From NCBI GenBank assembly GCA_036924855.1, contig JBAGRP010000001.1, forward strand, positions 5,816,001 through 5,880,000: DNA of 64,000 nt, given 5' to 3'. The stretch is from Nitrobacteraceae bacterium AZCC 2146 (GTDB lineage Bacteria > Pseudomonadota > Alphaproteobacteria > Rhizobiales > Xanthobacteraceae). The notes beneath the pieces were generated by a model that was given only the letters and a program-made list of their open reading frames with translations, was not told where the DNA came from and ran no database searches. This document shows positions 2,830-20,017 of this stretch, one piece after another (within the stretch, counting starts at the first letter, position 1; every line of letters begins with the position of its first letter). The position numbers and the translations under genes were made by a program.

Positions 2830-2846
2830 ACTAACCGTTTAGTCTA
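2830..2846. promoter_or_regulatory. Operator-like palindrome, site A
   Basis: ACTAACCGTTTAGTCTA, an imperfect dyad (ACTAA-N4-TTAGT), lies 34 bases upstream of the aldehyde dehydrogenase start and after the end of the permease gene. The identical 17-mer occurs at 20001-20017 before the second ABC transporter. The position suits a repressor site for the aldehyde dehydrogenase/cupin unit. Confidence 0.65.
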
Positions 2847-2923
2847 TCGGTATGCAAGCTATAAGTCTCTAAATCGAAGACACTGCTTGACCCGGCCGGA
2901 CCGCGGGACCGCGGGCGGGAAGG

Positions 2924-3790
2924 CTACATTGTCCCTGCGCTCGCCCCGTCTGCTCGCTCCTGATGAGGAATCGCCAGGCGTTCAAGGAATTCGATAGCGG
3001 CGAAGAAAACCAAGCCGAGAACAGTTAGCGCCAACACGCCGGCGAAAAGGAGAGGCGTATTCAGGCTACCGTTTGCAATCATGAGTTGGTAACCGAGGCC
3101 GGCATCGCCGCCGACGAATTCACCAACGACTGCGCCTACGACGGCCAACGTGATCGAGATCTTCAAACCAGCGAAGATCGAAGGCAGCGCGTTAGGCAGA
3201 CGGATCAATCGGAACGTGCCAAAGCGCGACAATCCCATCGATCGCGCTAAGTATATTTTCTCGCGTTCCATCGACGTAAGTCCCATGACCGTGTTGATTA
3301 CGATTGGAAAAAACGCGATCAGAAACGCAATGAGGATCTTCGGAAGAAAACCGAAGCCGAACCAAACCACGAACAAAGGGGCGATCGCGACCTTCGGCAT
3401 CGCCTGCGTTGATATAAGCAGCGGATAGACCGTCCTAGCGAATATCGGCCACTGGAAAATTCCAAAAGCAAGAGGAATTCCCACTGCAATGCTGAGAAGA
3501 TATCCCAGTGTAATTTCGATAGTCGTAACCCAAGATTCGCGTAGCAAAAGCGGGCCGTTGTCGATGCAAGCCTTGATGATGGAACTGGGCGCAGGGAAAA
3601 GGTAAGTTGGAATTTTGAAGAAATCTACGCCGACTTCCCATGCGAGAATCATCCCTGCCACAGCGAGAACCGGCAAGACGATCTCCGCAATCCTATCTCG
3701 CGACTTCTGCGCTTTCTTCTCATGCTGAACGCGCTGCTCAACCTGCTCGATAGATGATGCTTCTACTTTTTCGATTGCTGCTATCGTCAT
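2924..3790 (-). CDS. ABC transporter permease, NitT/TauT (SsuC/TauC) type
   Basis: 288 residues with a cytoplasmic N-terminus and about six membrane segments. The EAA-loop region (YLARSMGLSRFGTFRLIRLPNALPSIFAGLKIS) is typical of the permeases of nitrate, sulfonate, taurine and thiamine-precursor importers. The start is the ATG at 3790, preceded by GGAG at 9 bases; the longer TTG frame includes that ribosome site and is unlikely. It follows the ATPase gene by 15 bases and belongs to the substrate-binding/ATPase/permease operon. Substrate unknown. It forms the inner-membrane channel of the importer. Confidence 0.9.
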   Translation of the reverse strand: MTIAAIEKVEASSIEQVEQRVQHEKKAQKSRDRIAEIVLPVLAVAGMILAWEVGVDFFKIPTYLFPAPSSIIKACIDNGPLLLRESWVTTIEITLGYLLSIAVGIPLAFGIFQWPIFARTVYPLLISTQAMPKVAIAPLFVVWFGFGFLPKILIAFLIAFFPIVINTVMGLTSMEREKIYLARSMGLSRFGTFRLIRLPNALPSIFAGLKISITLAVVGAVVGEFVGGDAGLGYQLMIANGSLNTPLLFAGVLALTVLGLVFFAAIEFLERLAIPHQERADGASAGTM

Positions 3791-3805
3791 TACGGATATC
3801 TCCAA

Positions 3806-4624
3806 TCAATGTTCGCGAATGATTCCGCGCTCGAGAAAAATATCGAGGATCTGACGGCTGTAGTCCGCAAACTGCGGCGTGTCTCGCATTGCCAGCTTGC
3901 GGGGACGGGGAAGGTCGATGTCTATGATCTTGTCAACCTTTCCCGGTCGCGGGGTCATGACAATAACTCGATCCGAGAGGAAGACGGCCTCCGCGATGCT
4001 GTGGGTTACGAAAAGGATCGAGATGTTACGCTCCCCACAGATCTTCTGGAGATCGAGAACGAGCTGGTCACGGGTGAGGGCATCGAGCGCACCAAAGGGC
4101 TCGTCCATCAGCAAGTGTGAGGGATCGTGTATAAGCGCGCGGCAAATCGACACGCGCTGGCGCATGCCGCCCGACAACGACTTCGGATATTTGTTCTCAA
4201 ATCCGCTCAGGCCGACGGCTGCCAACAAGCCGCGCGCACGTTTCTCGGCGACCTGCATATCCATTTTCCGCGCTTCGGCCTGAAGCATGACGTTCTCAAG
4301 AGCCGTTCTCCAATCGAGCAATACATGGTTTTGAAATACAATACCGATGTCGGTGCGAGGGCCGTTGATAGCCTTGTTTTCAATCAAGACCCGCCCATGG
4401 GAGGAAGATGTGAGACCGGCGGCTATCATCATCAGCGTGCTTTTGCCGCATCCGCTCGGACCGACAATCGAGACAAACTCTCCTTTGCGCTGGCTGATCG
4501 ATACCCTATCGAGCGCGCGTACGGGGCCGTCGTCGGTCGCGTAAACCTTGCTGAGCGACTCGATCTGAAGATAATCGGCGACAGCTATTGCTGCAGCGGA
4601 AGCAGGCGTACTGGCTTGCATCAT
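3806..4624 (-). CDS. ABC transporter ATPase, NitT/TauT (SsuB/TauB) type
   Basis: 272 residues from the ATG at 4624, which has AAGGA 8 bases upstream; about 94 residues of open frame upstream look non-coding. Walker A GPSGCGKST is at residues 55-63, the signature is SLSGGMRQR, Walker B is LLMDEPFGALD and the H-loop is FVTHSIAEA. It energises import through the permease encoded next to it. The order substrate-binding protein, ATPase, permease on one strand is the normal arrangement for this family. Confidence 0.92.
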   Translation of the reverse strand: MMQASTPASAAAIAVADYLQIESLSKVYATDDGPVRALDRVSISQRKGEFVSIVGPSGCGKSTLMMIAAGLTSSSHGRVLIENKAINGPRTDIGIVFQNHVLLDWRTALENVMLQAEARKMDMQVAEKRARGLLAAVGLSGFENKYPKSLSGGMRQRVSICRALIHDPSHLLMDEPFGALDALTRDQLVLDLQKICGERNISILFVTHSIAEAVFLSDRVIVMTPRPGKVDKIIDIDLPRPRKLAMRDTPQFADYSRQILDIFLERGIIREH

Positions 4625-4761
4625 GCACTTTATCCTTTTCGATCCAGCGGATTCAAAATTGATGTCCGCTCGCAATGAACTAGAAACGTGCGTCGCCATT
4701 GAATTCTGCCAGGCGACGCGGATTATGAACGGAACGGCGCGCCTAGCGCCGTGGCGCCTCC

Positions 4762-5802
4762 TCAGGCACTCTGCGGCGGCACAAACTCGATTTCCTTCGG
4801 CACGAAGTCGTTCGTGTAGAGATCCGAGGCCACAAGCGGAACAGTCACGCCGCCGTATGTCTTGAGCGCATCGACGGTGGCCTGCCAATCGGATTCGGCC
4901 ATCCAACCGAGCGGCTTGTTCCGGGTGGCTTCGGTTACCCAGGTGCTCCAGGAAAGCTGGGCTTCGCGAAGGGTAATCGCGACATCGCTGGCTTCCTGAT
5001 GCTTCTTTACGATCCCAGCCATCTCCTCGGCGTTTGCCCGGCCGTAGAGGAACCCCTTCATGCTTGCCCGCACGACGCCGCTAATGAGATCGGTTTCCTT
5101 CATCATGTCTTCATGCAGGATGATGCCATCGCTGACGGCGGTTACTCCGTAATCGGCGTACCAGAAGACTCGAGCCTTCTTATTGCCTCGGATCTCAATG
5201 GCAGGCACCCATCCCTGGGCGAAGCCGGCGATGGCATCGACCTGGCCGTTGATCAGAGCAGGTGCAGCGCCCGCGGGATCGACGTTGATGATTCTGACCT
5301 TGGCAGCGTCAAGTCCGGCGCCCTTTGCAAAGGCGGGCCACTGCTGAAATTGAGCCGAGCCCGTCGGGATGCCTATCGTCTTGCCCTCAAGATCCTTCGG
5401 AGTCTTGATTCCCGATGTGTCAAGCACGATGACGGCTGCCGGATTCTTCCTATAGACCGCAGCCACCATCTTCAGCTTCATCCCTTTGGAGACGCTGTTC
5501 CCAAGCACATATCCGTCGGCGAACCCGAACTGCGAGGCCTTTGAAGCGACGACTTGAGCCGTGCTTCCGGATCCCTTGCCCTGATTGATGGTCACGTCGA
5601 GGCCCGCCTCCGTGAAAAACCCCTTCTCCTTGGCAACGATGAAGCCGGCGTTCGGACCTTGATGCACCCAATCCGTCAGCAGGCTGACGGGGCGCAGGGG
5701 CTTGAGCGATTGTGCACGAACGATCGATGGCATCGAGAGCGCCATCACGCCAGTTGCAGTCGCCTTGATGAGCGTGCGTCGCGAAATCGATCGTTCAGAC
5801 AT
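4762..5802 (-). CDS. ABC transporter substrate-binding protein, NMT1/THI5-like (SsuA type)
   Basis: 346 residues with a Tat-like export signal (SRRTLIKATATG, cleavage near VRAQ). The mature protein begins LKPLRPVSLLTDWVHQGPNAGFIVAKEKGFF, which is the NMT1/THI5-like periplasmic binding fold of importers for sulfonates, nitrate, HMP-type pyrimidines and aromatic acids. GGAG precedes the ATG at 5802 by 6 bases. It is the first gene of the importer operon, 208 bases from a divergently transcribed SDR gene with an operator-like site between them. A paralogue lies at 21708-22712; both end in a YTNDFVP motif, suggesting similar ligands. Confidence 0.9.
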   Translation of the reverse strand: MSERSISRRTLIKATATGVMALSMPSIVRAQSLKPLRPVSLLTDWVHQGPNAGFIVAKEKGFFTEAGLDVTINQGKGSGSTAQVVASKASQFGFADGYVLGNSVSKGMKLKMVAAVYRKNPAAVIVLDTSGIKTPKDLEGKTIGIPTGSAQFQQWPAFAKGAGLDAAKVRIINVDPAGAAPALINGQVDAIAGFAQGWVPAIEIRGNKKARVFWYADYGVTAVSDGIILHEDMMKETDLISGVVRASMKGFLYGRANAEEMAGIVKKHQEASDVAITLREAQLSWSTWVTEATRNKPLGWMAESDWQATVDALKTYGGVTVPLVASDLYTNDFVPKEIEFVPPQSA

Positions 5803-5868: not shown

Positions 5869-5882
5869 CTAACTAACTAGTC
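5869..5882. promoter_or_regulatory. Operator-like site B in divergent promoter gap
   Basis: CTAACTAACTAGTC; its reverse complement GACTAGTTAGTTAG is identical to site E at 15535-15548. It lies between the divergent ABC-importer operon and the SDR gene, where one bound repressor could control both directions. Confidence 0.6.
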
Positions 5883-6010
5883 TGTACTATCAGCCAAATC
5901 AGGCTTTTTGCCCAATCTTGAAGCCATGATGCCCGCGATTGATGCACTCAGCTCCGTTCCGGAGGGCATAAGCGAACATCCCCAACAGCACGCAAACAGA
6001 GAGATACAAA

Positions 6011-6814
6011 ATGTCCTTTCAACTCAAAAATCGTGTTGCGCTGGTCACCGGCTCGGGCCGCGGAATCGGTGCGGCGATCGCAACCCGATTGTCCGAAGCC
6101 GGAGCAACCGTTTACCTTGCGGACCTCCATGAGAAAGGTGCTCAAGATGTGGCCGCTTCGATCTGCGCTTCAAACGGGCGGGCCAGGGTCTTGAGCTTTG
6201 ATGTGACCGACGGGCACGGCTGGGAGACCGCGATTGAAGTAATCAAAAAGGAGTCCGGCAGGCTCGATGCCCTTGTAAACAACGTCGGTATCACGATCTC
6301 CAAATCCGTCGAGGAAACAACCACGGAAGATTGGCGTCTAATGATGAAGGTGAATCTCGAGGCGCCTTTCATCGGGGTGAAGGCAGCGCTGCCGCTGATG
6401 AAGGAGAGCGCCAAGTCGACGCCCTTCGGCGGGAGCATTGTCAACATGAGTTCGGTGTCCGGAATCGTCGGGACGCCGAACCTCTCATGCTATACCGCAT
6501 CAAAGGGCGGCCTTCGATTTTTCAGCAAAAGCGCCGCCATTGAGTTCGCAAGAGCAGGGTACCGAATAAGGGTGAACACTGTTCATCCGGGTCTCACAGA
6601 GGGGGATTCGGCAACGGTCCTGTTTCAATCTGCTGTCGATTCTGGTCGTTCGAAGACTATCGCAGAGGCGCAAGAGCTGTGGACGGCGCGGTACCCAATG
6701 AACAGGATGGCGCGCCAAGAAGATATTGCCGAAGGTGTACTTTTTCTTGTCTGCGATGAGTCCAATTACATGACCGGGACGGAGTTGATCATGGATGGCG
6801 GGCTTTCGGCCTGA
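6011..6814 (+). CDS. Short-chain dehydrogenase/reductase (SDR)
   Basis: 267 residues, classical SDR. The Rossmann motif is GSGRGIG near residues 15-21, followed by NNVGI, the catalytic Ser in MSSVSGIVG and YTASKGG (Tyr-x-x-x-Lys). The C-terminus MTGTELIMDGG is typical. An acidic residue ends beta-strand 2 (YLADLHE), which usually means NAD rather than NADP. It would oxidise or reduce an alcohol/ketone intermediate. It is divergent from the ABC importer and shares a candidate operator with it. Confidence 0.9.
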   Translation: MSFQLKNRVALVTGSGRGIGAAIATRLSEAGATVYLADLHEKGAQDVAASICASNGRARVLSFDVTDGHGWETAIEVIKKESGRLDALVNNVGITISKSVEETTTEDWRLMMKVNLEAPFIGVKAALPLMKESAKSTPFGGSIVNMSSVSGIVGTPNLSCYTASKGGLRFFSKSAAIEFARAGYRIRVNTVHPGLTEGDSATVLFQSAVDSGRSKTIAEAQELWTARYPMNRMARQEDIAEGVLFLVCDESNYMTGTELIMDGGLSA

Positions 6815-6858: not shown

Positions 6859-9177
6859 CTATCGGAGAAATGAGCCTGATCCCGCTACTGCGTCAGGCAT
6901 CGTGGTGGCTTCCTGAATCATCCGCCAAATCCGATCGGGAGACAGCGGTAGTTCGGTGAGCTTTAGGTCGAAATCTACGAGCGCGGCTGCAATTGCATTC
7001 GCCATTAGGCCGCCGACCGGAATTGTACCGCCCTCACCCGCACCCTTTGCCCCTAGCGGGTGATTGGGCGATGGCCGGAGTTCAATGGATGTCGACCTGA
7101 TATTCGGATAATCGGTCGCAAGCGGCACCAGGTAATCAGCGAGAGAGCCCGACAGCATCTGACCGTTCTCGTCGTAGACAAAATTCTCGAGAAACGTGCC
7201 GCCAAGTCCTTGTACAATCGATCCCACCGCCTGACCGTGGAGTGTCAGAGGGTTGATGATGCGTCCGGCATCTTCAATGGCGACATAGTCGACGATATCG
7301 ACGTGGCCGGTTTCGGCATCGACGGTCACGTGCGCGGCATGAGATCCATACGTGTAGGTGTGTTTACTATTTGAAAATGTGGCTTCATAGGAGAGCTTTC
7401 GTTCCCCCAGGCTGGCAAGTTGGACTGAGCCGCCGTGAACCGATACGACGGCGCCGCGTTCGTACCGCACGTCGTTGATTTGACATTGCAGAATCTCAGC
7501 GCCGGCGGACAGGATTTGCTGTTTCAATTCGGCCGCTGCCAGCAGAATCGCATTGCCTCCCATTACCGTAGAACGTGAATGGTAGGAGCCCCACCCCTCT
7601 TTGACGTATGTCGTCGAGCCATGAAAAACGCGGACGTTCTCCATATCTAAATCCATGGCATCCGCGGCGATTTGCATCAGGATAGTCTGAACTCCTTGGC
7701 CGACCGCTGACGATCCGACGTAGACCGATACCGATCCGTCTTTCTCGAGCACTAGCTTTGCGTTTTCCCTCGGGCCCGCAGCGCCTCCCTCAACAAAGCA
7801 GCCGACAGCGAGGCCATGATAGCGGCCATCTATGAGCGCTCCCTGCAAAGTCTGCTTCTGCTCCCAGTCCACTTTTTTCAGGCACAGGTCGAGGACCCGT
7901 TCGTAAGCTCCGCTGTCGAGCTCCGTAAGGACGGGATCCGGTTCGATTGCGGGGAGCGCGTATGGGAATTGGTCTTCCGTAACAAGATTCCGGCGCCGAA
8001 ATTCAACCTTGTCGATACCGAGGTCCGCGGCGGCTAGGTCAAACATTCGCTCGCGGAAGAAATCGGCCTCGAAGCGGCCCGGCCCCCTATAGGTGCCTGA
8101 CGGAGATTTGTTGGATACGATGACCGCCACGGTGCCTGTATAGTTCGGAACTCGATAAGGTCCCGGTATGAACTGTCCGACGTTTCGCGGAGAAATCGGG
8201 GTCGACGTTCGAAAATAGGCACCCACATTCGAGTAGAGTGTGGCTCGCAAGCCCAAAACATGACCGTCCTTGTCGCAAGCGATATCGAGGTCGCATGCCA
8301 CATCCCGGGCATGCGTGATGGCAAGCAGATGCTCCCTGCGGTCCTCAATCCACTTGACGGGCCGATTCAAAAGCCGCGCAGCAAACGGAACGAGAAAGTC
8401 TTCGGGAAAAAATTCTCCCCGTACACCGAAGCTGCCACCGGCATCGCCCTCAATCATCTCGACCGAGGTTTCCGGAAGTTGCATCAGCATGGCGAGTATC
8501 TTACGGTTCGCGAACGGCACCTTGCTGGCGCCCCAGGATGTCAGCTTCTGTTCGCGATCGTCCCATTCGGAAAGTACTCCCCGCGTTTCCATTGTAATGC
8601 CGGTATGGCGATGGACGTACAGCCTCTCGCTTCGGGTATAATGGGCCGCCTCGAACACGCCGTCCAGGTCGCCGCGTTTGATACGGTATTCGAACGCGCG
8701 ATTTGAGCCATGATCCTCGAAAAGCATCGAGTCCTCATTGCGCTCAGCTTGCACCGATGAAACCGCGGGAAGGGCATCGATTTCGGCATAGATCAATTCG
8801 AGAGCATCTTCGGCGATGGCCGGCGACTCTGCGATGACTATTGCGAGGGGCTCGCCGACAAACCGAACCTTGTCGTAGGCAAGCACCGGTTGCCAAAACT
8901 TCTCCATCGCCGGGTTGGGAAATAGCCGGACGGGCACGAAAGGGACCGGCAATCCGAGATCGGAGGCCTTAAGGACGGCGTGCACCCCCTTAAGCGCCTT
9001 GGCCTCATCGACATCTATCTTACGAATGGTTCCGTGGGCAACAGAACTGCGAAAGATGGCTGCATGGAGCAAGCCGTCTCGCTCCAGATCATCGACGAAG
9101 CGCCCCTTTCCGCGCAGCAATCGCAGGTCTTCGATGCGCTCAATCGGTCTGCCAACCAAGGGCTTCCGTTCACTCAT
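6859..9177 (-). CDS. Molybdenum hydroxylase, large molybdopterin-binding subunit (xanthine dehydrogenase family)
   Basis: 772 residues from the ATG at 9177, which overlaps the stop of the iron-sulfur subunit (ATGA). Aldehyde oxidase/xanthine dehydrogenase domains are clear: N-terminal VGRPIERIEDLRLLRGKG, the molybdopterin-binding GGSFGVRG, and the C-terminal GAKGAGEGG, which carries the catalytic Glu that activates water. The active-site loop reads TYRGPGRFEA, not the AYRCSFR of carbon monoxide dehydrogenase, so this is a hydroxylase for an organic, probably heteroaromatic or aldehyde, substrate. It is the last gene of a four-gene operon with all junctions overlapping. Confidence 0.93.
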   Translation of the reverse strand: MSERKPLVGRPIERIEDLRLLRGKGRFVDDLERDGLLHAAIFRSSVAHGTIRKIDVDEAKALKGVHAVLKASDLGLPVPFVPVRLFPNPAMEKFWQPVLAYDKVRFVGEPLAIVIAESPAIAEDALELIYAEIDALPAVSSVQAERNEDSMLFEDHGSNRAFEYRIKRGDLDGVFEAAHYTRSERLYVHRHTGITMETRGVLSEWDDREQKLTSWGASKVPFANRKILAMLMQLPETSVEMIEGDAGGSFGVRGEFFPEDFLVPFAARLLNRPVKWIEDRREHLLAITHARDVACDLDIACDKDGHVLGLRATLYSNVGAYFRTSTPISPRNVGQFIPGPYRVPNYTGTVAVIVSNKSPSGTYRGPGRFEADFFRERMFDLAAADLGIDKVEFRRRNLVTEDQFPYALPAIEPDPVLTELDSGAYERVLDLCLKKVDWEQKQTLQGALIDGRYHGLAVGCFVEGGAAGPRENAKLVLEKDGSVSVYVGSSAVGQGVQTILMQIAADAMDLDMENVRVFHGSTTYVKEGWGSYHSRSTVMGGNAILLAAAELKQQILSAGAEILQCQINDVRYERGAVVSVHGGSVQLASLGERKLSYEATFSNSKHTYTYGSHAAHVTVDAETGHVDIVDYVAIEDAGRIINPLTLHGQAVGSIVQGLGGTFLENFVYDENGQMLSGSLADYLVPLATDYPNIRSTSIELRPSPNHPLGAKGAGEGGTIPVGGLMANAIAAALVDFDLKLTELPLSPDRIWRMIQEATTMPDAVAGSGSFLR

Positions 9178-9665
9178 GATTCCACCGCCTGTTCCGTGGA
9201 CCGATAAGCGTCCCTTGCGTCCAATACTGCCCTCACGATCGACAGATAGCCGGTGCAGCGGCACACGTTGCCAGACAGGACTTCCCGTATCCGCTCCTCG
9301 TCGGCCTCAGGCTCTCTACTGAGAAGCGCATGTGCTGTCGTGATGATTCCGGGTGTACAAAACCCACATTGAAGTCCGTGATGCTTTCTAAAGGAACGTT
9401 GCAGGGGAGACAGCTCCTCGTCGTTGGAAAGTCCTTCGACAGTTATGATTTTTGCGCCTTGGGCCTGCACAGCAAGTATGAGGCATGAACGTGATGCTTC
9501 TCCGTTCACGATGACGGTGCACGCTCCGCACACCCCGTGCTCGCAACCGATATGGGTTCCGGTCCTGTGCAACTCGTGTCGGATGCAATCCCCGAGAGTC
9601 ATGCGTGGCTCAACGTTGACGCTGACATTCTCACCATTCAGTTCAAAATTAATGTCCAGTCTCAT
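9174..9665 (-). CDS. Molybdenum hydroxylase, (2Fe-2S) small subunit
   Basis: 163 residues. The plant-type ferredoxin domain holds CEHGVCGACTV and a further Cys (SRSCL). The C-terminal helical domain holds CGFCTPG and CRCTGY for the second cluster. It passes electrons from the molybdenum site to FAD. The ATG at 9665 (MRLDINFELNG) has a purine-rich site just upstream; the longer open frame overlaps the FAD-subunit gene and is not coding. The gene overlaps both neighbours. Confidence 0.93.
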   Translation of the reverse strand: MRLDINFELNGENVSVNVEPRMTLGDCIRHELHRTGTHIGCEHGVCGACTVIVNGEASRSCLILAVQAQGAKIITVEGLSNDEELSPLQRSFRKHHGLQCGFCTPGIITTAHALLSREPEADEERIREVLSGNVCRCTGYLSIVRAVLDARDAYRSTEQAVES

Positions 9666-10533
9666 TCGCCCCCCGGCGTGTTGATATCGCCTCGCGAAGA
9701 GTCCGCCCGGCGAGAGTACCGACCAGGGATCTTCTGTATTCAGCGCTTGCATGGATATCCGATCCCGGGTCAGCACATTCGGCTGCCCGGATCTTTACTT
9801 TCCCGATCAACTCTTCGGTCACATGATTCCCTTCAAGGAGCGCCTCTACATCGGTGAGACGCATAGGAACGCTGCCTCCACCGATGACGCCGACGTGGGC
9901 ATTAAGAACACGTCCCTCGTCGTCCTGATCGAAGAAAACGGCAACACCAGCGATTGCAAAATCGCCCCGACGGCGGGCGAATTCCTGGAAGGCCCAGCGC
10001 CTGGCCTTGGGCCAAGGTGGGAAGCGCACTTCAGTTATTATTTCGTCCGCCTCGAGCACTGTCTCAAGCGCTCCAGAAAAGAAATCACCAGCCCCGATGA
10101 GCCGGCGGCCGCCCGCTCCCGTTACGGCAATCTCACAATCACAAACGACCGCAACGCCAGGCATTTCCGCGGCCGGATCTGCGTGGGCGAGGCTCCCGCC
10201 GACCGTCCCGCGAGTCCGGATTTGATAATGCGCTACGTGGGAGATCATACCCTGAAAAAGGGGATGACTGGCGCGAAGGCGTGCATCTCTTTCGATGTCG
10301 CACCATCGAACGCGAGAACCGACCCTCAATCCATCTGCAGTAATTTTGATTTCACCGAGCCCCTCTATCCGCTTGATATCGACGAGCAAGGACGGATATG
10401 CCAATCGGAACGCGAGAATCGGAAGCAGACTCTGTCCGCCAGATAGGATCTTTGCTCCTTCATTCGATGCGAGAAGCCGTACAGCCTCGTCCACCGAAGC
10501 CGGGCAAGCGTAGTCGAACTGCGGCATCTTCAT
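9649..10533 (-). CDS. Molybdenum hydroxylase, FAD-binding medium subunit (CoxM-like)
   Basis: 294 residues. The FAD-binding motifs LSGGQSLLP and TRGTVGGSLAHADPAAEMP are both present, followed by the CO-dehydrogenase flavoprotein C-terminal domain. It accepts electrons from the 2Fe-2S subunit and delivers them to an acceptor. The start codon overlaps the stop of the CocE-like hydrolase gene (ATGA at 10530-10533), and the 3' end overlaps the next gene by 17 bases, so translation is probably coupled. Confidence 0.92.
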   Translation of the reverse strand: MKMPQFDYACPASVDEAVRLLASNEGAKILSGGQSLLPILAFRLAYPSLLVDIKRIEGLGEIKITADGLRVGSRVRWCDIERDARLRASHPLFQGMISHVAHYQIRTRGTVGGSLAHADPAAEMPGVAVVCDCEIAVTGAGGRRLIGAGDFFSGALETVLEADEIITEVRFPPWPKARRWAFQEFARRRGDFAIAGVAVFFDQDDEGRVLNAHVGVIGGGSVPMRLTDVEALLEGNHVTEELIGKVKIRAAECADPGSDIHASAEYRRSLVGTLAGRTLREAISTRRGANETGH

Positions 10534-12212
10534 CGCGGTTGATCCAAGCGCTGAGGAATGAACGGCAGTAGCAGATAGGATTCGCTGCTAGGGCCGCTCA
10601 GAATAGTGTTGCGTACGTTGAATTCAAAAGGAGGGCGGTCCTGCGGATGGCTATGCTGCAAACGACCGGCTCCGCCGGATACTTCGTAGTCGCACCCTTG
10701 AATGGTCAAGGCCATCCGATATCCGATCGGAAAGACAATACTGGTCGGCCATATTTCAACATTGAGGGGATAGGGCTTTCCTGGCTCTAAATGTTGAACT
10801 TCGTTGTGCGCATGATATGGACGATAAGGAAGTGACATGGTCTCGTCGATCTTGCGATGAGAGGCTCTCAGCCAGCCGCGGGCGACTGGTTCGATATCGC
10901 TGGCTCCGACAAACGCTACTTCGGAGCCGTCCGGGGAAATCATCCGCAACGTGGCAAAGACGTCCAGATCGTTGGTGAACGATTTAATCCACAGGCGAGC
11001 CATCAACGGGCCTGTAAATTCCGTACGATCTTCGAAAGGTTCGGAAAGAAAGGTAACACCTTCTCCAATCGGTGTGTAACCGAATTGGGCGTGAGTGACG
11101 GCAGGCTTCAACGAGAGTGTTCGGCCTTCGCAATTGAGGTAATATTTCTGCCACTGCGTGCGCGCTAACGGCCATTCCTCCTCATTTCTTGACTCGGCCG
11201 ATGCAGGGCCGCGAACCTCAAGACGGACTTTTGGCTCATCGAGCCATCCGTTGTTGTCGCCCTTGAGAAAGTGACCAAAAAATCGCTTCTGTCGTTCGAC
11301 ATATGCGGGGAGGTAAAAGCTTTCAAAGTGCGTCCCTACGTGGATCTCGAGCCACTTCTTTTTCGAAGCTGAACGAACGTAGCCCTCAATATTTCCTCGT
11401 AGATGCAATCCAGCCCCGCCCCAATTGCCGGACGAAAATAGAGGCACTTCAATAAGGGATAGGTCGGGCGTGCGCTCACGATACCACTCATCGTCCAGGG
11501 AATGCCGCAGTAGGTCGTTGGGATGATCAGCGCGATTAGTCGCCAGCATCGAAGCGTTCAGCGGAACGCCTGTTGTTGGCTCTCCGGTCTCGCGGTCGCG
11601 GTGATGCGTTTCGCTATTCCCGTTCTGATTGACGAGGACCTGTCTAGGCCACCAGGCGGTGGGGAAATGGTTACTGAATATGCCGCCGTGGTGGCTCCAG
11701 TCTCGGTATAGGTCGCAACCGCCTTCCCAGGGACAGATTGCAGTCAAATGCGGCGGTCGCAGAGCCGCAACCTGCCATTGTTTAATAGAGAGATAGGAAA
11801 TTCCTATCAGCCCGATCTTTCCGGTCGACCAGGGCATTCGGGCCGCCCATTCGATGGCGTCATAAAAGTCCTGGGTCTCGCGCGGCGAAAAGGGGTCAAG
11901 ATATCCCGGCGACTTTCCGCTGCCGCGGGAATCCACGTGGACCACAACGTACCCATCAGGAACCCATCTGTCTGGATCAATCATTTCCCAACGGAGAAAC
12001 TTGCCCGAAGACCCTTCGTCGCAAATCCCAGGGTTCAACTGCTGAAGCTTTTCCCACTGCGGCTTATATCCGTCTGCAAAGTGGACGTCCTTTCCGTAGA
12101 TTCCCATGGCCATGAGGACAGGAAAAGGCCCGTCTCCATTGGGACGGTAAACATTCGCCCTAAGTTGACAGCCGTCATTTGCAGGAATGAGGACATCTTG
12201 TTCGGCGATCAT
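10530..12212 (-). CDS. CocE/NonD family hydrolase (X-Pro dipeptidyl-peptidase S15-like)
   Basis: About 560 residues. The alpha/beta hydrolase core shows DSRGSGKSPG (oxyanion region) and the nucleophile elbow GLIGISYLS. The C-terminal jelly-roll domain is that of CocE-type esterases and acylamidases. The ATG at 12212 was chosen (MIAEQDVLIPANDG); the upstream frame is open but atypical and no strong ribosome site decides it. It is the first gene of the operon leading into the three molybdenum hydroxylase subunits. An ester or amide cleavage feeding the hydroxylase is therefore a reasonable inference. Tandem operator-like sites lie just upstream. Confidence 0.88.
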   Translation of the reverse strand: MIAEQDVLIPANDGCQLRANVYRPNGDGPFPVLMAMGIYGKDVHFADGYKPQWEKLQQLNPGICDEGSSGKFLRWEMIDPDRWVPDGYVVVHVDSRGSGKSPGYLDPFSPRETQDFYDAIEWAARMPWSTGKIGLIGISYLSIKQWQVAALRPPHLTAICPWEGGCDLYRDWSHHGGIFSNHFPTAWWPRQVLVNQNGNSETHHRDRETGEPTTGVPLNASMLATNRADHPNDLLRHSLDDEWYRERTPDLSLIEVPLFSSGNWGGAGLHLRGNIEGYVRSASKKKWLEIHVGTHFESFYLPAYVERQKRFFGHFLKGDNNGWLDEPKVRLEVRGPASAESRNEEEWPLARTQWQKYYLNCEGRTLSLKPAVTHAQFGYTPIGEGVTFLSEPFEDRTEFTGPLMARLWIKSFTNDLDVFATLRMISPDGSEVAFVGASDIEPVARGWLRASHRKIDETMSLPYRPYHAHNEVQHLEPGKPYPLNVEIWPTSIVFPIGYRMALTIQGCDYEVSGGAGRLQHSHPQDRPPFEFNVRNTILSGPSSESYLLLPFIPQRLDQPR

Positions 12213-12291
12213 GCGTAGAGATCTTTCTTTCCAAGCGAACCGCTCCCGCAACTCGCGCGTCCAAATAATGTTACCTTAATCTAGTTAAGGG

Positions 12292-12342
12292 CTAACTGTC
12301 TAGTTAGTCTTTCTGGTTGACGATTAACTGTCTAGTTAGTCT
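12292..12342. promoter_or_regulatory. Tandem operator-like sites C1 and C2 in divergent promoter gap
   Basis: C1 (12292-12307) is a perfect palindrome CTAACTGTCTAGTTAG. C2 (12324-12342) is TTAACTGTCTAGTTAGTCT. The starts are 32 bases apart, about three helical turns, so two repressor dimers could sit on the same face. A weaker related sequence, TTAATCTAGTTAAG, precedes C1. The gap separates the hydrolase/molybdenum hydroxylase operon from the divergent esterase gene. Confidence 0.7.
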
Positions 12343-12421: not shown

Positions 12422-13342
12422 ATGATGGACCCAGAGACCACGTTGCCGGAAATTCCCGCGGAACTAAGAGCGCTCATGGCCGAAGTCGGACCACGATGGA
12501 AAGACGACATTGGCGGTAATGTCGGCCTTATGATCAAACATTTCTCCGCCGTCCTCAAGAGCGCGCCCGAGGGCGGTGCAGCCGTGCATAATAATATCAA
12601 GTATGGCGCGCACGAACGCCAAGCGATTGATGTTTTCGTGCCTCAGGGTGCGGCGACTCCGACTCCGGTCGTCCTATTTGTACACGGCGGTGCTTTTGTC
12701 ACCGGAGATCGTAATCGAACGGATCAAATTTATTCGAATGTCCTACAGTATTTTGCCCGGTACGGTATTGCCGGAGCAAATGTTGGATACCGATTGGCAA
12801 ACGATGCAACTTATCCTGAAGCCACTCTGGATATTGCTACTGCCGCGCGTTGGGTGCGCGATCACGCCTCCGAGTTCGGCATGGATCCCGCGCGCATGTT
12901 CCTGATGGCGCACTCTGCCGGTGCCGCACACGCTGGTAGCCTTGCCTATGACGATCGTTTTCGGTCAGTTGGCGCTCCCGAGCTTGCCGGAATGATCGTG
13001 GTAAGCGGCCGTGTCCGCGCAGACAATCTTCCCGAGAACCCCAACGCCGCGAAGGTCGAAGCCTATTACGGCACGGACTCTTCGAAATTCGATGAGTATT
13101 CGCCGGTCACTCACATAAACAGCAGGAGCATACCGACGTTCGTAGCGTGGGCTGAATTCGAGAACCCCCTCGTGGATGTGTACTGCGCCGAGCTGGCCTA
13201 CCGGCTTGCAGTCGCAAAGCGGAAGTCGCCGCCGATGCTCTGGCTTCGCGGACACAACCACACTTCCTCCATTGCCCACATCAATACCGCGGATGAGGCA
13301 TTGGGGCGCGCGATCGTAAATTTTGTCCACAAGCCGACCTGA
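12422..13342 (+). CDS. Alpha/beta hydrolase (HSL/carboxylesterase-like)
   Basis: 306 residues, preceded by GAGGAAAG. The oxyanion motif HGGAFVTGD and the nucleophile elbow AHSAGAAHAG (catalytic Ser) are clear, with a late His in RGHNHTSSIAH. It resembles small-molecule carboxylesterases and arylformamidases of the hormone-sensitive lipase group. It is divergent from the CocE-like gene, with tandem operator-like sites between them, and convergent with the amidohydrolase gene. A second ester- or amide-cleaving enzyme in one locus suggests a substrate with a blocked acid or amine. Confidence 0.88.
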   Translation: MMDPETTLPEIPAELRALMAEVGPRWKDDIGGNVGLMIKHFSAVLKSAPEGGAAVHNNIKYGAHERQAIDVFVPQGAATPTPVVLFVHGGAFVTGDRNRTDQIYSNVLQYFARYGIAGANVGYRLANDATYPEATLDIATAARWVRDHASEFGMDPARMFLMAHSAGAAHAGSLAYDDRFRSVGAPELAGMIVVSGRVRADNLPENPNAAKVEAYYGTDSSKFDEYSPVTHINSRSIPTFVAWAEFENPLVDVYCAELAYRLAVAKRKSPPMLWLRGHNHTSSIAHINTADEALGRAIVNFVHKPT

Positions 13343-13368: not shown

Positions 13369-14316
13369 TCACAGTCGCAATAATCGGGCGGCGTTTCCCG
13401 AGAGGATGGACGTCCGGTGCTTATCGCTGAGGGGTACGCTGCGCATCCATGTCACGCCGCGGTTGTTCGATGCGTACGGCCAATCCACGGAGAACATGAT
13501 TCGCTCGAGGCCAATCTCATCGATGCAGCAACGAAGGGCTGCATCGGAAAAAAAGCCGCTCGTCGTAACGTAGAAATTCCGGCGGAAAATCTCGCGAAAG
13601 TTCTTCATCGGCGTGTCGCGGGAGAGCGCTTCGTCCACCCGGCTGATCACATAAGGAATCGTCTCCCCGAGGTGTCCAAGAATGATCGTGAGGCCGGGAA
13701 TTTCGTCGAATAGCCCACTAAGCACCAGCCGCATGGCCTGGGTTCCCGCTTCGAAAGTGAAGCCCCAGGCAGCCCTGATGAACATCGGATGGGTATCAAC
13801 GTATCCTTCGTAGTAGGCCTTCACGACCGCTGGATTTTGATCGGCTGGATGAATATAAATTGGGACACCCAACGCGGAGGCTCTTCGGAAGATCGGCCAA
13901 AACTTCCTTTCATCCAGAAAAGGCCCCTCGGGGAGACTATGAAGCATCGCGCCCTTGAAGCCGAGCTCGCGAACCGCACGTTCCAGCTCGTCAGCCGCTG
14001 CTTCAGGTTCAACGCTCGGCAAGGAAGCGAAGGCGGCGAGGCGCGTCGGATGAGCCTTGATCGCCATGCATAAGCGATCGTTGGCAGCCTTGGTCCAAGC
14101 AACCGCTATGTCCTTTCGAAGTCCCTGAGAGCCGGGAGAAGCGTGGGACACAACTTGGATGTCGATACCGGCGTCGTCCATCTCTTTTATGCGCGCCTCA
14201 GCTAGACTTTCCATGCGCTGCAACAAGGGGGAGTTTGGACGTGCCGAATGGAGCGCCGGGTCGAAAGCGCTATTCCATTCCGGATCGAAGTAATGCTCTT
14301 CCAATGCTATTATCAA
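13369..14316 (-). CDS. Amidohydrolase family 2 (ACMSD-like decarboxylase/hydrolase)
   Basis: 315 residues. The N-terminal strand IALEEHY replaces the usual HxH metal motif with E-E-H. Later metal-ligand segments are visible: YIHPADQNP, LGHLGETIPY and FSVDWPYAS. These match the ACMSD/gamma-resorcylate decarboxylase branch of amidohydrolases, which often decarboxylates aromatic or muconate-type acids through a single metal. It lies downstream of the DHODH-like gene on the same strand with a 73-base gap, probably in one operon. The exact reaction is not shown by the sequence. Confidence 0.87.
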   Translation of the reverse strand: MIIALEEHYFDPEWNSAFDPALHSARPNSPLLQRMESLAEARIKEMDDAGIDIQVVSHASPGSQGLRKDIAVAWTKAANDRLCMAIKAHPTRLAAFASLPSVEPEAAADELERAVRELGFKGAMLHSLPEGPFLDERKFWPIFRRASALGVPIYIHPADQNPAVVKAYYEGYVDTHPMFIRAAWGFTFEAGTQAMRLVLSGLFDEIPGLTIILGHLGETIPYVISRVDEALSRDTPMKNFREIFRRNFYVTTSGFFSDAALRCCIDEIGLERIMFSVDWPYASNNRGVTWMRSVPLSDKHRTSILSGNAARLLRL

Positions 14317-14389
14317 TACGCCACCTATTCTTCCTATCAGGATAATCCAGAAATTCGCAGAGAAGGAATGCGGTAGTCGGTAGCCACTA

Positions 14390-15409
14390 TCACGCCGGTC
14401 GACGTTGCGCGCTTTGACCGGAATCCATTAATTTTAGTAGGTCCCGGTTTATATCCCGCGCTACGGTCCAACCTTGAAAGATGAAGGCTGAATAGATATC
14501 TACGCAGACGGCGCCGGCCCGCCGCATAGCGAGAACATCATCGGCCGTGCTTATGCCGCCGTTCCCCTTGATGGGGACCCGTCCTCTTGCGAACCTCGCG
14601 CCTCGTTCAACGTTGGCAAGGGCCGCTTCGAATACCGCTCGGCCATGCAATGTGCCCCGACCCGTGCCGAGCCCAGTTTCGTTTACCGGTCGACCTCCAC
14701 CAATCTTAAGGCCGCCAATATTTGCTGCCGCACAGGTTTCCACCAACTCGGCTAATCTGTCATCCGCCGCGGCCGTGTCATTGGGAACGCGCACTATAAG
14801 TGATGGAGCGCGGTCGCCAATGCGATCTAGGACGCCGCGCAGCATACCCAACTCATCAAACCTCTCGTTCTTCTTGAGAACGTTCGGGCACATCAGACTG
14901 ATCTCAACCGCATCTACGTGCGGAAGAATTTCAACTACTCCTTCGGCAATCGCTTGAGATGAAAAGCCTCCGACATTTGCGAATATGGGCGGCATCGGCG
15001 ACCTGTGCCGCCGCAGATGCGCCAGCGCGCGCGCGCGGCCTCTACTCGGAACGCCCATGGAGTCGGCCACCGACTCCCGTTCTATGTACCTTACAAGGCG
15101 AGGAAACGGATTGCCAAAGCGGGGCTCAGGCATGATGGATCCGACGCAGATGAACCCGAAGCCGAAGTACGACAAGGATCCCAGGAGTTCAGCATCCTTG
15201 TCGAATCCCGCAGCAAGTCCGACTGGATTCGGCAATTCGACGCCGGCGAAAGTTGTTTTGAGGCGATCGTCCGAAACACGCAGATCAAGAGCGCCGGAAA
15301 GTGCGCGCCAAGGGAGAGCCCACCGCAGCAGCGCGTGGGATACAGAATGGCTTTGATCTGGTGTCAAGGTGAAGAGAGCTGGCCGAAGTACGTTGCGGTA
15401 AATTTGCAT
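14390..15409 (-). CDS. Dihydroorotate dehydrogenase-like flavoprotein (divergent class 2)
   Basis: 339 residues from ATG 15409 (MQIYRNVLRPALF). The N-terminal helical extension and GLAAGFDKD are those of membrane-associated class 2 PyrD, and the FMN barrel is complete (KGNGGI near the end). Two active-site segments differ from true PyrD. The orotate-binding MGFNN loop reads SMGVPSRG (Asn residues lost), and the catalytic Ser of the SSPN motif is Cys174 in SLMCPNV, as in class 1 enzymes and dihydropyrimidine dehydrogenase. With its catabolic setting, this argues for oxidation or reduction of a different substrate rather than pyrimidine synthesis. Candidate operators lie just upstream. Confidence 0.85.
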   Translation of the reverse strand: MQIYRNVLRPALFTLTPDQSHSVSHALLRWALPWRALSGALDLRVSDDRLKTTFAGVELPNPVGLAAGFDKDAELLGSLSYFGFGFICVGSIMPEPRFGNPFPRLVRYIERESVADSMGVPSRGRARALAHLRRHRSPMPPIFANVGGFSSQAIAEGVVEILPHVDAVEISLMCPNVLKKNERFDELGMLRGVLDRIGDRAPSLIVRVPNDTAAADDRLAELVETCAAANIGGLKIGGGRPVNETGLGTGRGTLHGRAVFEAALANVERGARFARGRVPIKGNGGISTADDVLAMRRAGAVCVDIYSAFIFQGWTVARDINRDLLKLMDSGQSAQRRPA

Positions 15410-15440: not shown

Positions 15441-15460
15441 ATAACGGACTAGTTAGTCTA
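15441..15460. promoter_or_regulatory. Operator-like site D
   Basis: ATAACGGACTAGTTAGTCTA lies 32 bases upstream of the DHODH-like start. It shares GACTAGTTAGTC with the other sites; its left half is degenerate. Confidence 0.6.
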
Positions 15461-15534
15461 TGTCCGGTGACCGCCTGCGTCAATCAGGGACTATGCGCGG
15501 GAAATGTCGTCGTCATCAAGAGTATCGATTGATT

Positions 15535-15548
15535 GACTAGTTAGTTAG
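15535..15548. promoter_or_regulatory. Operator-like site E
   Basis: GACTAGTTAGTTAG lies 48 bases before the DapA-family start. It is the exact inverse of site B. With site D it brackets the divergent promoter gap of about 190 bases. Confidence 0.6.
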
Positions 15549-15595: not shown

Positions 15596-16513
15596 ATGAC
15601 AGATTTCCGCGGAGTGTTCCCGTATCTCGTGACTCCGATCGATGCCTCCGGCGAGGTCCGGACGAACGTGCTCGCGTTGCTTTGCGAAAATCTAATCGGT
15701 GCGGGCGTCCATGGGCTCGCACCGCTCGGATCTACAGGTGAATTTGCATACCTCAGTGCCGAGCAAAGAAGAAAAGTCGTGGCTGTTACGGTTGAGGCGG
15801 CACGCGGGCGGGTGCCTGTCGTAGCAGGGGTCGCTGCCACAAATACAGCATCCGCAATTAAGCAAGCTCAGGAGTACGAGCGGCTCGGTGCGGACGGGAT
15901 ATTGGCCGTTCTCGAAGCATACTTCCCGTTGTCCGAGGTGCAGGTTGAGAGCTATTTCAGGGCAATTGCGGATTCGGTAGATATACCGATCGTCATCTAC
16001 ACCAATCCGCAATTCCAGCGCATCGACCTGTCAATCGATACAATCTCTCGGCTCGCAACGCATCCGCGAATTCGGTACATCAAGGATGCCACGACCAACA
16101 CCGGGCGCCTGATGTCGATCATGTCCCGGTGCGGCGAGAGCCTCCGCGTATTTGCAGCATCCTCCCACATCCCGGCTGCCGTCATGCTGATCGGGGGGAG
16201 CGGTTGGATGGCCGGTCCGGCGTGCCTGGTGCCCCGTCAGAGTGTTGCTCTCTATGAGCTCTGCGTGGAGGGACGTTGGGACGAGGCGACGACACTTCAA
16301 CGACGCCTTTGGCAGATCAATGAAGTGTTCGCCAGTTTTAACCTCGCGGCTTGTATCAAGGCCGGCCTTTCCTTGCAGGGGTACGACGTCGGCGATCCAA
16401 TCGCACCACAGTCGGCGCTAACATCCAACCAGCGCGACGCTATAGCCGGCATTCTGAACGATATCGTGGACCCTTCGTTCGGAAGCTATCTGAAGGTGCC
16501 TCCGTCCGCGTAG
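15596..16513 (+). CDS. DapA/DHDPS family aldolase-lyase
   Basis: 305 residues from ATG 15596, with GGAG at about 6 bases; the longer frame lacks a site. The fold signature is complete: GSTGE at 45-49, the active-site Tyr135 in IVIYTNP, and the Schiff-base Lys163 in RYIKDAT. The family includes dihydrodipicolinate synthase, N-acetylneuraminate lyase and catabolic hydratase-aldolases. In this locus a pyruvate-releasing retro-aldol step on a ring-cleavage product is more likely than lysine synthesis. Followed by the CoxG-like gene after 55 bases. Confidence 0.88.
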
Positions 16514-16568
16514 GCATAGCAGTATAATTATAGGCGAAACGGCGGCTCGCCGCAGTGGAGGATCTAAG

Positions 16569-17030
16569 ATGGCGATGATCATGGACGGAAACGTAAGGCT
16601 TGATGCACCCCGGAGCCACGTATGGGCCGAACTCAATAATCCAGAGGTCCTTAAGGCATGCGTTCCAGGCTGTGAGGACCTGCAGAAGATATCGGAGAAC
16701 GAATTTCGAGCAACGGCGAAGCTGAAAGTCGGCCCCGTTTCAGCTCGCTTCAAAGGGCGTGTCATCCTTAGCGATTTTGACCCGCCTCAATCCTACAAGA
16801 TCTCCGGGGAAGGTGAGGGCGGTATAGCGGGTTTTGCAAAGGGGAATGCAACAGTCAGATTGGAGGAAGACGGCGCCTCTACCCTTCTTTTCTACCGGGT
16901 GGATGCGCAGATCGGTGGAAAGGTGGCTCAACTCGGGCAGCGGCTGATTGATGGTGCAGCAAAGAAGGTGGCCGAAGAATTCTTCGCAAAATTTGCCCGC
17001 ATCGTCCAATCGGAGTCTACATCCGTCTGA
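16569..17030 (+). CDS. CoxG-like SRPBCC domain protein
   Basis: 153 residues with GGAGGATCTAAG directly upstream. The sequence (MDGNVRLDAPRSHVWAELNN, then LKACVPGCEDLQ and PPQSYKISGEGEGG) is the carbon-monoxide-dehydrogenase subunit G family with an SRPBCC ligand-binding fold. CoxG-type proteins accompany molybdenum hydroxylases and are linked to their membrane attachment or maturation. Its presence supports a functional tie to the hydroxylase genes at 6.9-10.5 kb, although it sits in a separate operon with the DapA-family gene. Confidence 0.87.
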   Translation: MAMIMDGNVRLDAPRSHVWAELNNPEVLKACVPGCEDLQKISENEFRATAKLKVGPVSARFKGRVILSDFDPPQSYKISGEGEGGIAGFAKGNATVRLEEDGASTLLFYRVDAQIGGKVAQLGQRLIDGAAKKVAEEFFAKFARIVQSESTSV

Positions 17031-17080
17031 TGGAGACCGCAGTTTTCCGAATGAAAATCTCCGGTTGAAACATTAGAACT

Positions 17081-18717: not shown

Positions 18718-18721
18718 TTAG

Positions 18722-18900
18722 GACCACGAATGGGACGCCATCAACCCGATGCTCGAGAACAAGCTGCACGGTATGCCCCATGTAGACGACCGGCGCGTAC
18801 TAAATGGCATCTCTTGGTCTCGTGGCGATCCGACACGACAAACTCCCGGCCAACTATCCGCTCTTCATCAAACTCGCATCAATCAGAATTTGGCTGCGCT
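18722..18900 (+). mobile_element. IS5-family transposase remnant (N-terminal part)
   Basis: The frame reads DHEWDAINPMLENKLHG then VDDRRVLNGI, matching the start of IS5-group transposases. It then shifts frame and continues as DKLPANYPLF, where an intact element has WRDLPANYGPF. No terminal repeats or catalytic core were found, so this is a short relic. Confidence 0.65.
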
Positions 18901-18917
18901 CTCCCTTGGTCCACGCC

Positions 18918-19560
18918 CTAGACGGGATATTTCCCACGGTAGGCGCTGGAAATCTCCGCCGATCCCACGGAGCGACCCGCATCGATCTCCTTTTCCATCT
19001 GGTGCATGAGCATTTCAACCCTGTCTGCCGTGGCTGGATCGCTCCGGAGGAGAACGCGCGTCGTATCGAGCAAATGAGCCTGCATGAGCGACACGGCCAA
19101 TGCTGCTTCGCGGCGGATGACCGCGTTCATAAGTGCCTCATGCTCACCGTCGACGTCTCGGTTGCCTAATTCATCGTGAGCGGACAAACGGCGGTAGCGG
19201 TCAACGTAATCGTAAAGCAACGCCCGGTACGACAAGAGCCTGGGCGCGCCACAAGCGGCGACCAATGAACCATGAAAAGCTTGGTGATTGCGCTCCCAAG
19301 TGTCCTCGAAAAACCGCGCCGCCGACTGACCCTGAGGGGCCATCCCCAAGCGGTGGCCCGCCGCGAGAATATTCGCTTCCCAGTCGCGGTCGCCTTGCGC
19401 AATCGCCGACTGCAGCGCGGTTCCTTCGATCCAAACCATCGTCTTCATAACGTCGATCAGATCGGCAGCGGAAACCTTGGCGACATGGAAACCGCGTTGT
19501 CCCTCCGCGGTAACCAACCCTAACGAGGTCAACCGAGACAAGGCCTCGCGCAGTGGGCTT
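18918..19560 (-). pseudogene. GntR-family (FCD domain) regulator, 5' truncated
   Basis: From the recognition helix onward (SPLREALSRLTSLGLVTAEG) the protein is a normal FadR/FCD-type GntR regulator to its C-terminus. The effector domain includes MVWIEGTALQSAIAQGD and HEALMNAVIRRE. The first 35 or so residues, including the start of the winged helix, are missing. The frame runs on into sequence that on the other strand encodes a LivH fragment, so the two were joined by a rearrangement near 19555-19565. The open frame extends to 19643 but that extension is not GntR-like. Probably inactive. Confidence 0.8.
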
Positions 19561-19775
19561 TGGCGCTTGGGGGGCTGCTGTTTCTGCTGTCTTCGGGATT
19601 CTCGCTGATCTTCGGTTTGATAAGAATCCCGAACCTCGCGCATGGGGCCCTCTTCATGCTCGGAGCATACTTTGGCGCGACTCTCGTTTCCTGGCAGGTG
19701 AATTTCTGGGTAGCGGCTATCCTGAGCGGCCCTCTTGGAATGATCTCAAGAATACCGCTTGTGACGCACCTCTGA
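19558..19775 (+). pseudogene. Branched-chain amino acid ABC permease (LivH) fragment
   Basis: About 60 residues (LALGGLLFLLSSGFSLIFGL, then NLAHGALFMLGAYFGA) match the first membrane segments of LivH permeases. The true N-terminus is missing at the junction with the GntR relic, and the fragment ends after GPLGMISRI. It is a rearrangement remnant and not a functional gene. Confidence 0.75.
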
Positions 19776-20000
19776 CGGAATGTGATCGGCTGCCGCGTGA
19801 ACGCTCCAACCAATTCCAAAGCCAGGCTTGCTACTGAATAAAGAGAAGCGGGCTAATTAAAGTTTCGGAGATTCGCTATGTTTCCGGTTACCAGCCTTCA
19901 TCTTGCAAGGAAGCCAGTTTTGATCTTCCGCGCCGGGGGGGTGCCGATCGCCCCGAGAACGAAGACTTTACTCCATACCGATGCCATTGGACGGGTTAGG

Positions 20001-20017
20001 ACTAACCGTTTAGTCTA
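20001..20017. promoter_or_regulatory. Operator-like palindrome, site F
   Basis: ACTAACCGTTTAGTCTA, identical to site A, lies 83 bases upstream of the second ABC ATPase start. This links the second importer to the regulon on the left. Confidence 0.65.

Follow-up and report, generated by a model that had tools for sequence, protein, structure and literature searches.

Which regulator reads the palindromic words that recur between the genes of a catabolic island in Nitrobacteraceae bacterium AZCC 2146? The stretch analysed here (the window) is 64 kb of the chromosome (C1:5816001-5880000; the genome is a single contig of 7,640,769 bases), and the island fills its left part, starting with a gene for a TetR-family protein that is cut by the window edge (the left-edge TetR). 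Seven sites, A, B, C1, C2, D, E and F, lie in promoter gaps of this island (Table 1; site coordinates are window positions). They are probably (about 0.83) operators of one RutR-type TetR-family regulator, with the left-edge TetR binding as a dimer and repressing, and with a paralogous island 1.2 Mb away (locus 2) sharing the operator, the two probably forming one co-induced regulon. Five things can be read directly from the sequence: the sites, their single architecture, their confinement genome-wide, their conservation beside orthologous regulators and their match to two Escherichia coli promoters bound by RutR. Binding by the left-edge TetR, repression, induction and cross-talk are what we infer from them.

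Seven sites and their common architecture

Exact word searches bore out the original prediction that seven sites are present as written. ACTAACCGTTTAGTCTA has two exact copies (2830-2846 and 20001-20017; sites A and F), as has GACTAGTTAGTTAG (5869-5882 on the - strand and 15535-15548 on the + strand; sites B and E). CTAGTTAG has five exact copies in the window, each at one of the seven sites, with 0.33 expected and none of 100 shuffles reaching five. The sites had also been placed in promoter gaps upstream of importer, hydrolase, dehydrogenase, dihydroorotate dehydrogenase (DHODH) and DapA genes, and this holds. A lies before the aldehyde dehydrogenase (ALDH) gene, B between importer and short-chain dehydrogenase (SDR) genes, C1 and C2 between the S15 (CocE/NonD) hydrolase and alpha/beta hydrolase genes, and D, E and F before the DHODH-like, DapA-like and second importer genes, respectively. 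D and E touch or overlap only the starts of the longest open reading frames (ORFs; 15442 for the DHODH-like and 15551 for the DapA-like gene), and the likelier starts, ATG 15409 and ATG 15596, are further in.

Two half-site spacings had been proposed, which has to be given up, as one 2-bp spacing suits all sites. A single architecture, YTRACYRNNTRGTYWR (degenerate form TTGACYA-NN-TRGTCAA), accounts for all seven, although D has two mismatches to it. How A and F align is settled by the - strand of site A (TAGACTAAACGGTTAG), which has GACTAAACGGT in common with the E. coli site between rutA and rutR. An initial guess at the palindrome, CTAACTAGTTAG, had no match in the genome with up to one mismatch and was rejected.

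A symmetric weight matrix (the main matrix) was built from 23 distinct non-genic sites beside TetR_C_29 (PF17938) genes in eight other genomes. The starting set comprised 33 sites with at least 12 of 14 consensus matches. Five were dropped because a crude gene caller put them in ORFs, although some of these are probably real (for example L128:10974 and L130:8070), and the remaining 28 gave the 23 sequences. There is some circularity in this, as locus 2 and the relatives were reached from the window motif and training was by likeness to a consensus written afterwards; the letters of the matrix come from other genomes only. When the window and the 16 kb to its left (80 kb) were scanned, the nine best positions were the seven sites and two second registers, at 15529 (12.3) and 12328 (11.7). 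The next, 38388 (11.0), is inside long ORFs and is the sole other position scoring at least 10, in keeping with the earlier statement that the rest of the window holds no such site. Ten window positions score at least 10, against 0.62 expected per 64 kb (Markov null, 200 runs). Matrices made from Rhodopseudomonas and genome G135 alone (14 distinct sites) and from locus 2 alone (five distinct sites) both placed the seven sites at ranks 1-7.

The RutR consensus is TTGACCANNTGGTCAA; the literature search found no written-out version of it, and comparison was made through matrix hits at promoters reported to be RutR-bound. The main matrix, which contains no E. coli sites, gave a single strong hit in the 5 kb around rutA-rutR, namely TGGACTAAACGGTCAA between the two genes (15.3, the runner-up scoring 1.4), and a single strong hit in the 1.5 kb around the carA start, namely TTGACCATTTGGTCCA upstream of carA (16.5, the runner-up scoring -1.7). 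According to PMC10891134, RutR recognises a palindromic sequence of about 16 bp and has boxes at rutR/rutAG and at carAB; PMC6245113 reports its release by uracil. Since one matrix finds both E. coli sites and the seven window sites, which have the same 16-bp palindrome, half-sites and 2-bp spacer, the latter are, by their letters, RutR-type boxes, closely resembling the switch for pyrimidine use in E. coli. RutR regulons with taxon-specific motif changes are reported across Proteobacteria (PMC5343134); the kind is therefore already known.

Judged by profile scores, the left-edge TetR is not RutR itself. It reaches 57.6 bits against the RutR equivalog (TIGR03613, cut-off 368), carries TetR_C_29, and is 31% identical to E. 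coli RutR over 177 amino acids (aa), with a common VSK...YF.SKE recognition segment. No match to TIGR03613 above the cut-off was found in any of 11 genomes, and a bona fide RutR elsewhere in the own genome was rejected, as the best match there is 67.6 bits. There is no rutABCDEFG operon among the island genes scanned, and the nearest Rut relatives, both in locus 2, are far under their cut-offs (RutB 102.9 of 377.95 and RutA 63 of 498.3). Instead of rutABCDEFG, the window sites front importer, DHODH-like, DapA-like, hydrolase and ALDH genes.

The paralogous island and relatives of the regulator

The motifs had been thought to be confined to one island, but seven further places lie in locus 2. 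On the 7.64-Mb chromosome YTRACYRNNTRGTYWR, a pattern written with all sites known, has 17 strand matches at 13 distinct places, namely A, B, C1, C2, E, F and the seven in locus 2, and no others; the reversed pattern, used as a control, gives 12 strand matches. Random occurrence across the genome, which the original prediction had named as speaking against it, was thus not found, although the pattern does extend beyond one island. The 16-mer of site B has an identical copy at chromosome 7000649, and the locus 2 site at 7000532 is intermediate between the A/F form and the B-E form. GWCTAGTTAGTY, allowing up to one mismatch, has 16 matches in the genome, six of them exact (five in the window, one at 7000651) and ten with one mismatch (three at 6995940-7020098, seven elsewhere). 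In the 18 genomes of the genus, exact GWCTAGTTAGTY occurs six times in the own genome, once in G237 (the equivalent of 7000651) and once in G222; this last copy, which falls in an ABC ATPase ORF at its 3' end, is taken as chance. The reversed control of GWCTAGTTAGTY is far commoner (197 matches against 16, whole genome, up to one mismatch), so that CTAG-type words seem depleted outside the islands.

Locus 2 contains isochorismatase, DHODH, Amidohydro_2, importer-ALDH-TetR, cupin and CoxMSL-like genes, in addition to two more TetR_C_29 regulators and two further importers. Window proteins are 68% (DHODH), 70% (Amidohydro_2), 70% (substrate-binding protein, SBP), 83% (ATPase) and 77% (permease) identical to those of locus 2 (cupin and alpha/beta hydrolase, Table 1), and ALDH is 80% identical over residues 100-471 and 62% over residues 1-99. 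The DapA, CoxG and CocE proteins have no counterpart in the 60 kb around locus 2 at E <= 1e-15. Measured in 4-kb steps, G+C is 55-58% in the window island (1-24000) and 62-65% in locus 2 (L024-L026), a contrast that hints at a separate, horizontal origin of the window island.

The original prediction favoured one repressor, probably the left-edge TetR. Comparison supports a single type of TetR-family regulator, with the left-edge TetR as the best candidate binder; it may not be the sole one, given three regulators of the same family in locus 2 (TetRa, 7005007; TetRb, 7010461; TetRc, 7015327). These three lie within about 11 kb (L025:5007-16121; chromosome 7005007-7016121). Read in the whole chromosome, the left-edge TetR is an uninterrupted protein of 268 aa; it matches PF00440 at 50.5 bits (cut-off 24) and PF17938 at 116.9 bits (cut-off 26.2), and is 65-67% identical to TetRa, from which its recognition segment differs by one of the 25 residues shown. 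PF17938 has eight matches above the cut-off and two below in the own genome. Regulators associated with sites belong to the left-edge TetR/TetRa clade or to the TetRb clade and have a common SKN(L/M)...Y...SKE recognition segment; TetRc, beside the weak site 7016220, is outside both clades and its recognition segment differs.

Of 60 loci found in genome contigs, the closest four encode proteins with 65-71% identity to the left-edge TetR and come from Rhodopseudomonas palustris, R. infernalis and two metagenome-assembled genomes (Tardiphaga and Hyphomicrobiales). In a set of 296 family genomes that includes the own one, a relative at 64-67% is present in five further genomes, and the next best match is at 46%. 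Contigs L037, L038 and L040 belong to G067, G156 and G135, and L039 is contig 191 of G237; none was counted twice. L039, titled Tardiphaga, is 98-100% identical to locus 2, and G237 belongs to the genus of the window. Relatives at 64-71% identity adjoin equivalent sites fronting orthologous importer, cupin and enzyme genes. Sites close to TTGACYANNTRGTCAA adjoin the relatives' regulators and precede orthologous importer, cupin and isochorismatase genes, and in locus 2 the molybdenum hydroxylase genes too. The Rhodopseudomonas and Tardiphaga clusters resemble the window island in their TetR_C_29 regulators (64-71% identity), equivalent operators and orthologous importer, cupin, DHODH and molybdenum hydroxylase genes. 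The window island differs from them in being a second copy that has diverged: it has DapA/CoxG genes of its own, its ALDH has a separate promoter (site A), a second importer is present (site F) and its sites are more degenerate.

Without mismatch, TTGACYANNTAGTCAA was present in 10 of the 296 family genomes at 16 distinct places, 14 of which are within 9 kb of a PF17938 gene (chance of at least 14 of 16, 3e-18, taking such neighbourhoods as an estimated 4% of the genome). The exceptions are in G151, where the nearest PF17938 gene above the cut-off is 0.85 Mb away and a weak one below it 0.33 Mb away, and in G200, which has no PF17938 match. Six genomes, counting the own one, have a TetR at 64% identity or more, and TTGACYANNTAGTCAA is present in five of them.

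Promoter geometry, mechanism and alternative readings

In the best promoter matches, the 17-bp spacer of TTGACG/TCTAAT is taken up by C2, the -10 of TTGACG-17-TAGACT lies under D, and TTGACT-17-TATAGA, ahead of ATG 15596, has the left half of E as its -35; site A has no good promoter match. As C2, D and E overlap predicted core promoters, repression at these sites is most likely. The left-edge TetR, encoded by the last gene of a probable ALDH-cupin-TetR unit behind site A, would bind the sites as a dimer and, by covering core promoters or crowding them, keep the importers and catabolic enzymes repressed until some pathway compound released it. Site A would place the regulator under its own negative feedback. 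Locus 2 would be governed by this operator too, via a regulator with nearly the same recognition helix, and for this reason the two islands are probably one co-induced regulon. The enzyme set (importers, molybdenum hydroxylase, DHODH-like, Amidohydro_2, isochorismatase-like, CocE hydrolase and DapA-like) suggests a pathway that degrades an N-heterocycle or amide.

For a poorly characterised catabolic cluster this gives a proposed operator, regulator and two-island regulon, and use of a RutR-type box by TetR_C_29 proteins other than RutR is indicated. With one operator and sister regulators, the two related islands lend themselves to testing how paralogous repressors share or separate their targets, and the substrate could be sought via a compound that induces these genes. 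No publication on this cluster was found in a literature search, which missed most subscription journals and RegPrecise; searches on the pathway, and on Tardiphaga with TetR, gave nothing relevant by title.

Several results weigh against repression of all seven sites by one such regulator. No TetR closer than 67% was found among the 296 family genomes and the site set of this island is in none of the other 17 genomes of the genus, so that A, C and F are not directly footprintable. By raw count, TTGACYANNTAGTCAA (22 strand matches in the 296 genomes) is about as common as its reversed control (20), and only its location therefore counts as evidence; G135, with a TetR relative at 67%, has near variants instead of TTGACYANNTAGTCAA. 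The 14-mer of A/F, with up to two mismatches, occurs at six places, three of them (besides A, F and 7000535) outside both islands. The 95% point of the null maximum per window is 14.9, exceeded by E and B only, with A, F, C1, C2 and D below; these five are significant as a set, not singly. A matrix from TetRb-type sites only (nine sites, three genomes without close TetRa-type regulators) ranked E first and the others 4, 7, 8 and 12-14. Promoter-like matches in the region number 7 against 9.1 in shuffles, so the promoter overlaps are suggestive only, and B and F sit just upstream of a -35 (TTGACT), where activation is also possible.

That last position is one of two grounds for an activating rather than repressing regulator. 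By eye, the B arrangement recurs before four related SBP genes, those of locus 2 and three relatives, and RutR is described as an activator at carAB P1 (PMC6245113). Activation is nevertheless unlikely, given that C2 in the -35/-10 spacer, D on the -10 and E supplying the -35 are positions suited to occlusion. There is an appreciable, if minor, likelihood that a locus 2 regulator (TetRa, TetRb or TetRc) is the main binder and the left-edge TetR is redundant or diverged. TetRa has nearly the same recognition segment and nearby sites that fit YTRACYRNNTRGTYWR, and TetRb-clade genes adjoin such sites in genomes lacking a TetR relative at 64% or more (G112, G182 and G071). However, the left-edge TetR is intact and behind site A, and TetRc differs in its recognition segment. 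The poor fit of the TetRb-only matrix, together with the good fit of the matrices from Rhodopseudomonas plus G135 and from locus 2, favours the TetRa clade, including the left-edge TetR, as reader of the sites.

Division of the sites between two regulators, with A and F forming a palindrome of LacI or some other type (GACTAAACGGTTAGTC, whose halves are spaced 4 bp wider) and B-E belonging to another protein, seems improbable. A/F do hold a CTAA-N4-TTAG arrangement with a central CG that B-E are without, but in the 2-bp register they score about like C and D, and GACTAAACGGT ties them to E. coli just as 7000532 bridges them to the B-E form. No LacI match was found among 20 island proteins scanned, and the LacI reading was rejected on the register and the shared GACTAAACGGT. 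A present or past role as regulator of the sites is highly improbable for the FCD/GntR gene (18918-19567), even though it lies inside the island between E and F. The gene is truncated, its N-terminal DNA-binding part mostly missing (winged-helix profile positions 39-64 of 64 only) and its frame meeting an opposite-strand LivH-like permease fragment at about 19570, and the 60 kb around locus 2, with the same sites, has no FCD/GntR match at E <= 1e-15. Chance repeats of an AT-rich word can be dismissed almost entirely: the words are short and two-copy repeats common, yet the counts exceed shuffles, a matrix from other genomes ranks the sites top and the pattern is confined to two related islands.

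Within the preferred reading, of one RutR-type regulator repressing at these sites, the least expected result of the analysis is a second register 4 bp away. Of 15 own-genome sites, six have a second register that scores at least 5 and is offset by exactly +4 or -4 bp, where random flanks would give 1.1; all other offsets up to 8 bp gave none. Among the relatives' sites, two of 30 have one (1.0 expected), a contrast that is indicative, since the own list includes weak sites (8.9 and 9.6) and the relatives' list strong ones only. The site lists for this and the sub-matrix tests were hand-picked and include some of the dropped sites. Some TetR proteins, among them QacR and CprB, place two dimers on a single operator (PMC4150764), and staggered dimers are therefore conceivable here. 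What distinguishes the own genome from those systems is that its second registers, in the six of 15 sites, have the exact 4-bp offset only. A RutR-type operator may be evolving here into an overlapping double operator, bound by TetRa-clade regulators or two paralogs as staggered dimer pairs that would combine the signals of the two duplicated islands and of as many as four sister regulators, an idea that is speculative and rather doubtful.

Genes of the island and neighbouring features

NCBIfam profiles, run on ten proteins, gave names above the cut-off only for CocE/NonD and for an NtaA/DmoA-type monooxygenase. The remaining assignments are listed in Table 1.

Table 1. Genes and predicted operator sites of the island, in window positions; scores are those of the main matrix
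Feature	Positions	Strand	Details
TetR_N + TetR_C_29 regulator (left-edge TetR)	3..656	-	N-terminal 218 of 268 aa in the window, remainder to the left; likely binder of the sites
Cupin_2 protein	798..1337	-	Probably co-transcribed with TetR; 72% identity to locus 2 cupin
Aldehyde dehydrogenase	1350..2775	-	Reading frame broken near 2478
Site A, RutR-type operator	2831..2846	-	TAGACTAAACGGTTAG on - strand; precedes ALDH-cupin-TetR genes; score 13.6; exact match to YTRACYRNNTRGTYWR
NMT1-type importer operon	2924..5802	-	SBP (start ATG 5802), ATPase, permease
Site B, operator	5869..5884	+	CTAACTAACTAGTCTG; between importer (SBP) and SDR genes; abuts predicted SBP -35; score 15.7; fits YTRACYRNNTRGTYWR
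Short-chain dehydrogenase	6011..6814	+	Divergent from importer; 64% identity to an ORF in L038
CoxL/M/S-like molybdenum hydroxylase genes	6859..10533	-	
CocE/NonD (S15) hydrolase	10530..12251	-	
Site C1, operator	12292..12307	+	CTAACTGTCTAGTTAG; score 12.0; second register at +4 scores 8.1; fits YTRACYRNNTRGTYWR
Site C2, operator	12324..12339	+	TTAACTGTCTAGTTAG; score 14.2; second register at +4 (11.7); between TTGACG (12317) and TCTAAT (12340), hydrolase gene
Alpha/beta hydrolase	12422..13342	+	68% identity to locus 2 gene
Amidohydro_2 + DHODH-like enzymes	13369..15409	-	DHODH start probably ATG 15409
Site D, operator	15445..15460	-	TAGACTAACTAGTCCG on - strand; score 14.8; overlaps predicted -10 (TAGACT) of DHODH-like gene; two mismatches to YTRACYRNNTRGTYWR
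Site E, operator	15533..15548	+	TTGACTAGTTAGTTAG; score 19.4, top of 80 kb; left half is predicted -35 of DapA-like gene; second register at -4 (12.3)
DapA-like lyase + CoxG-like protein	15596..17030	+	DapA-like start probably ATG 15596
Site F, operator	20002..20017	+	CTAACCGTTTAGTCTA; score 13.6; upstream of predicted -35, second importer operon
Second NMT1-type importer operon + SDR	20100..23548	+	

In the 2400-2775 region (- strand) of the ALDH gene, the locus 2 ortholog aligns in two different frames, one for residues 1-99 and one for residues 100-471; the frame change is either a broken gene or a sequencing error. Further to the right (18918-19775), the truncated FCD/GntR gene (- strand) abuts the permease fragment (+ strand) at about 19570. 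We take this fragment to be LivH-like from its sequence rather than from a profile. The junction is a rearrangement scar inside the island.

Outside the island, PAS domains are joined to a C-terminal helix-turn-helix (weak match) at 24201-25223, and at 46548-48155 (+ strand) an OmpR-type DNA-binding domain is fused to a STAND/NB-ARC-like ATPase. A protein of 1664 aa encoded at 49055-54049 (+ strand) combines a weak protein-kinase match below the cut-off with AAA_16, GAF, PAS and histidine-kinase-type ATPase domains.

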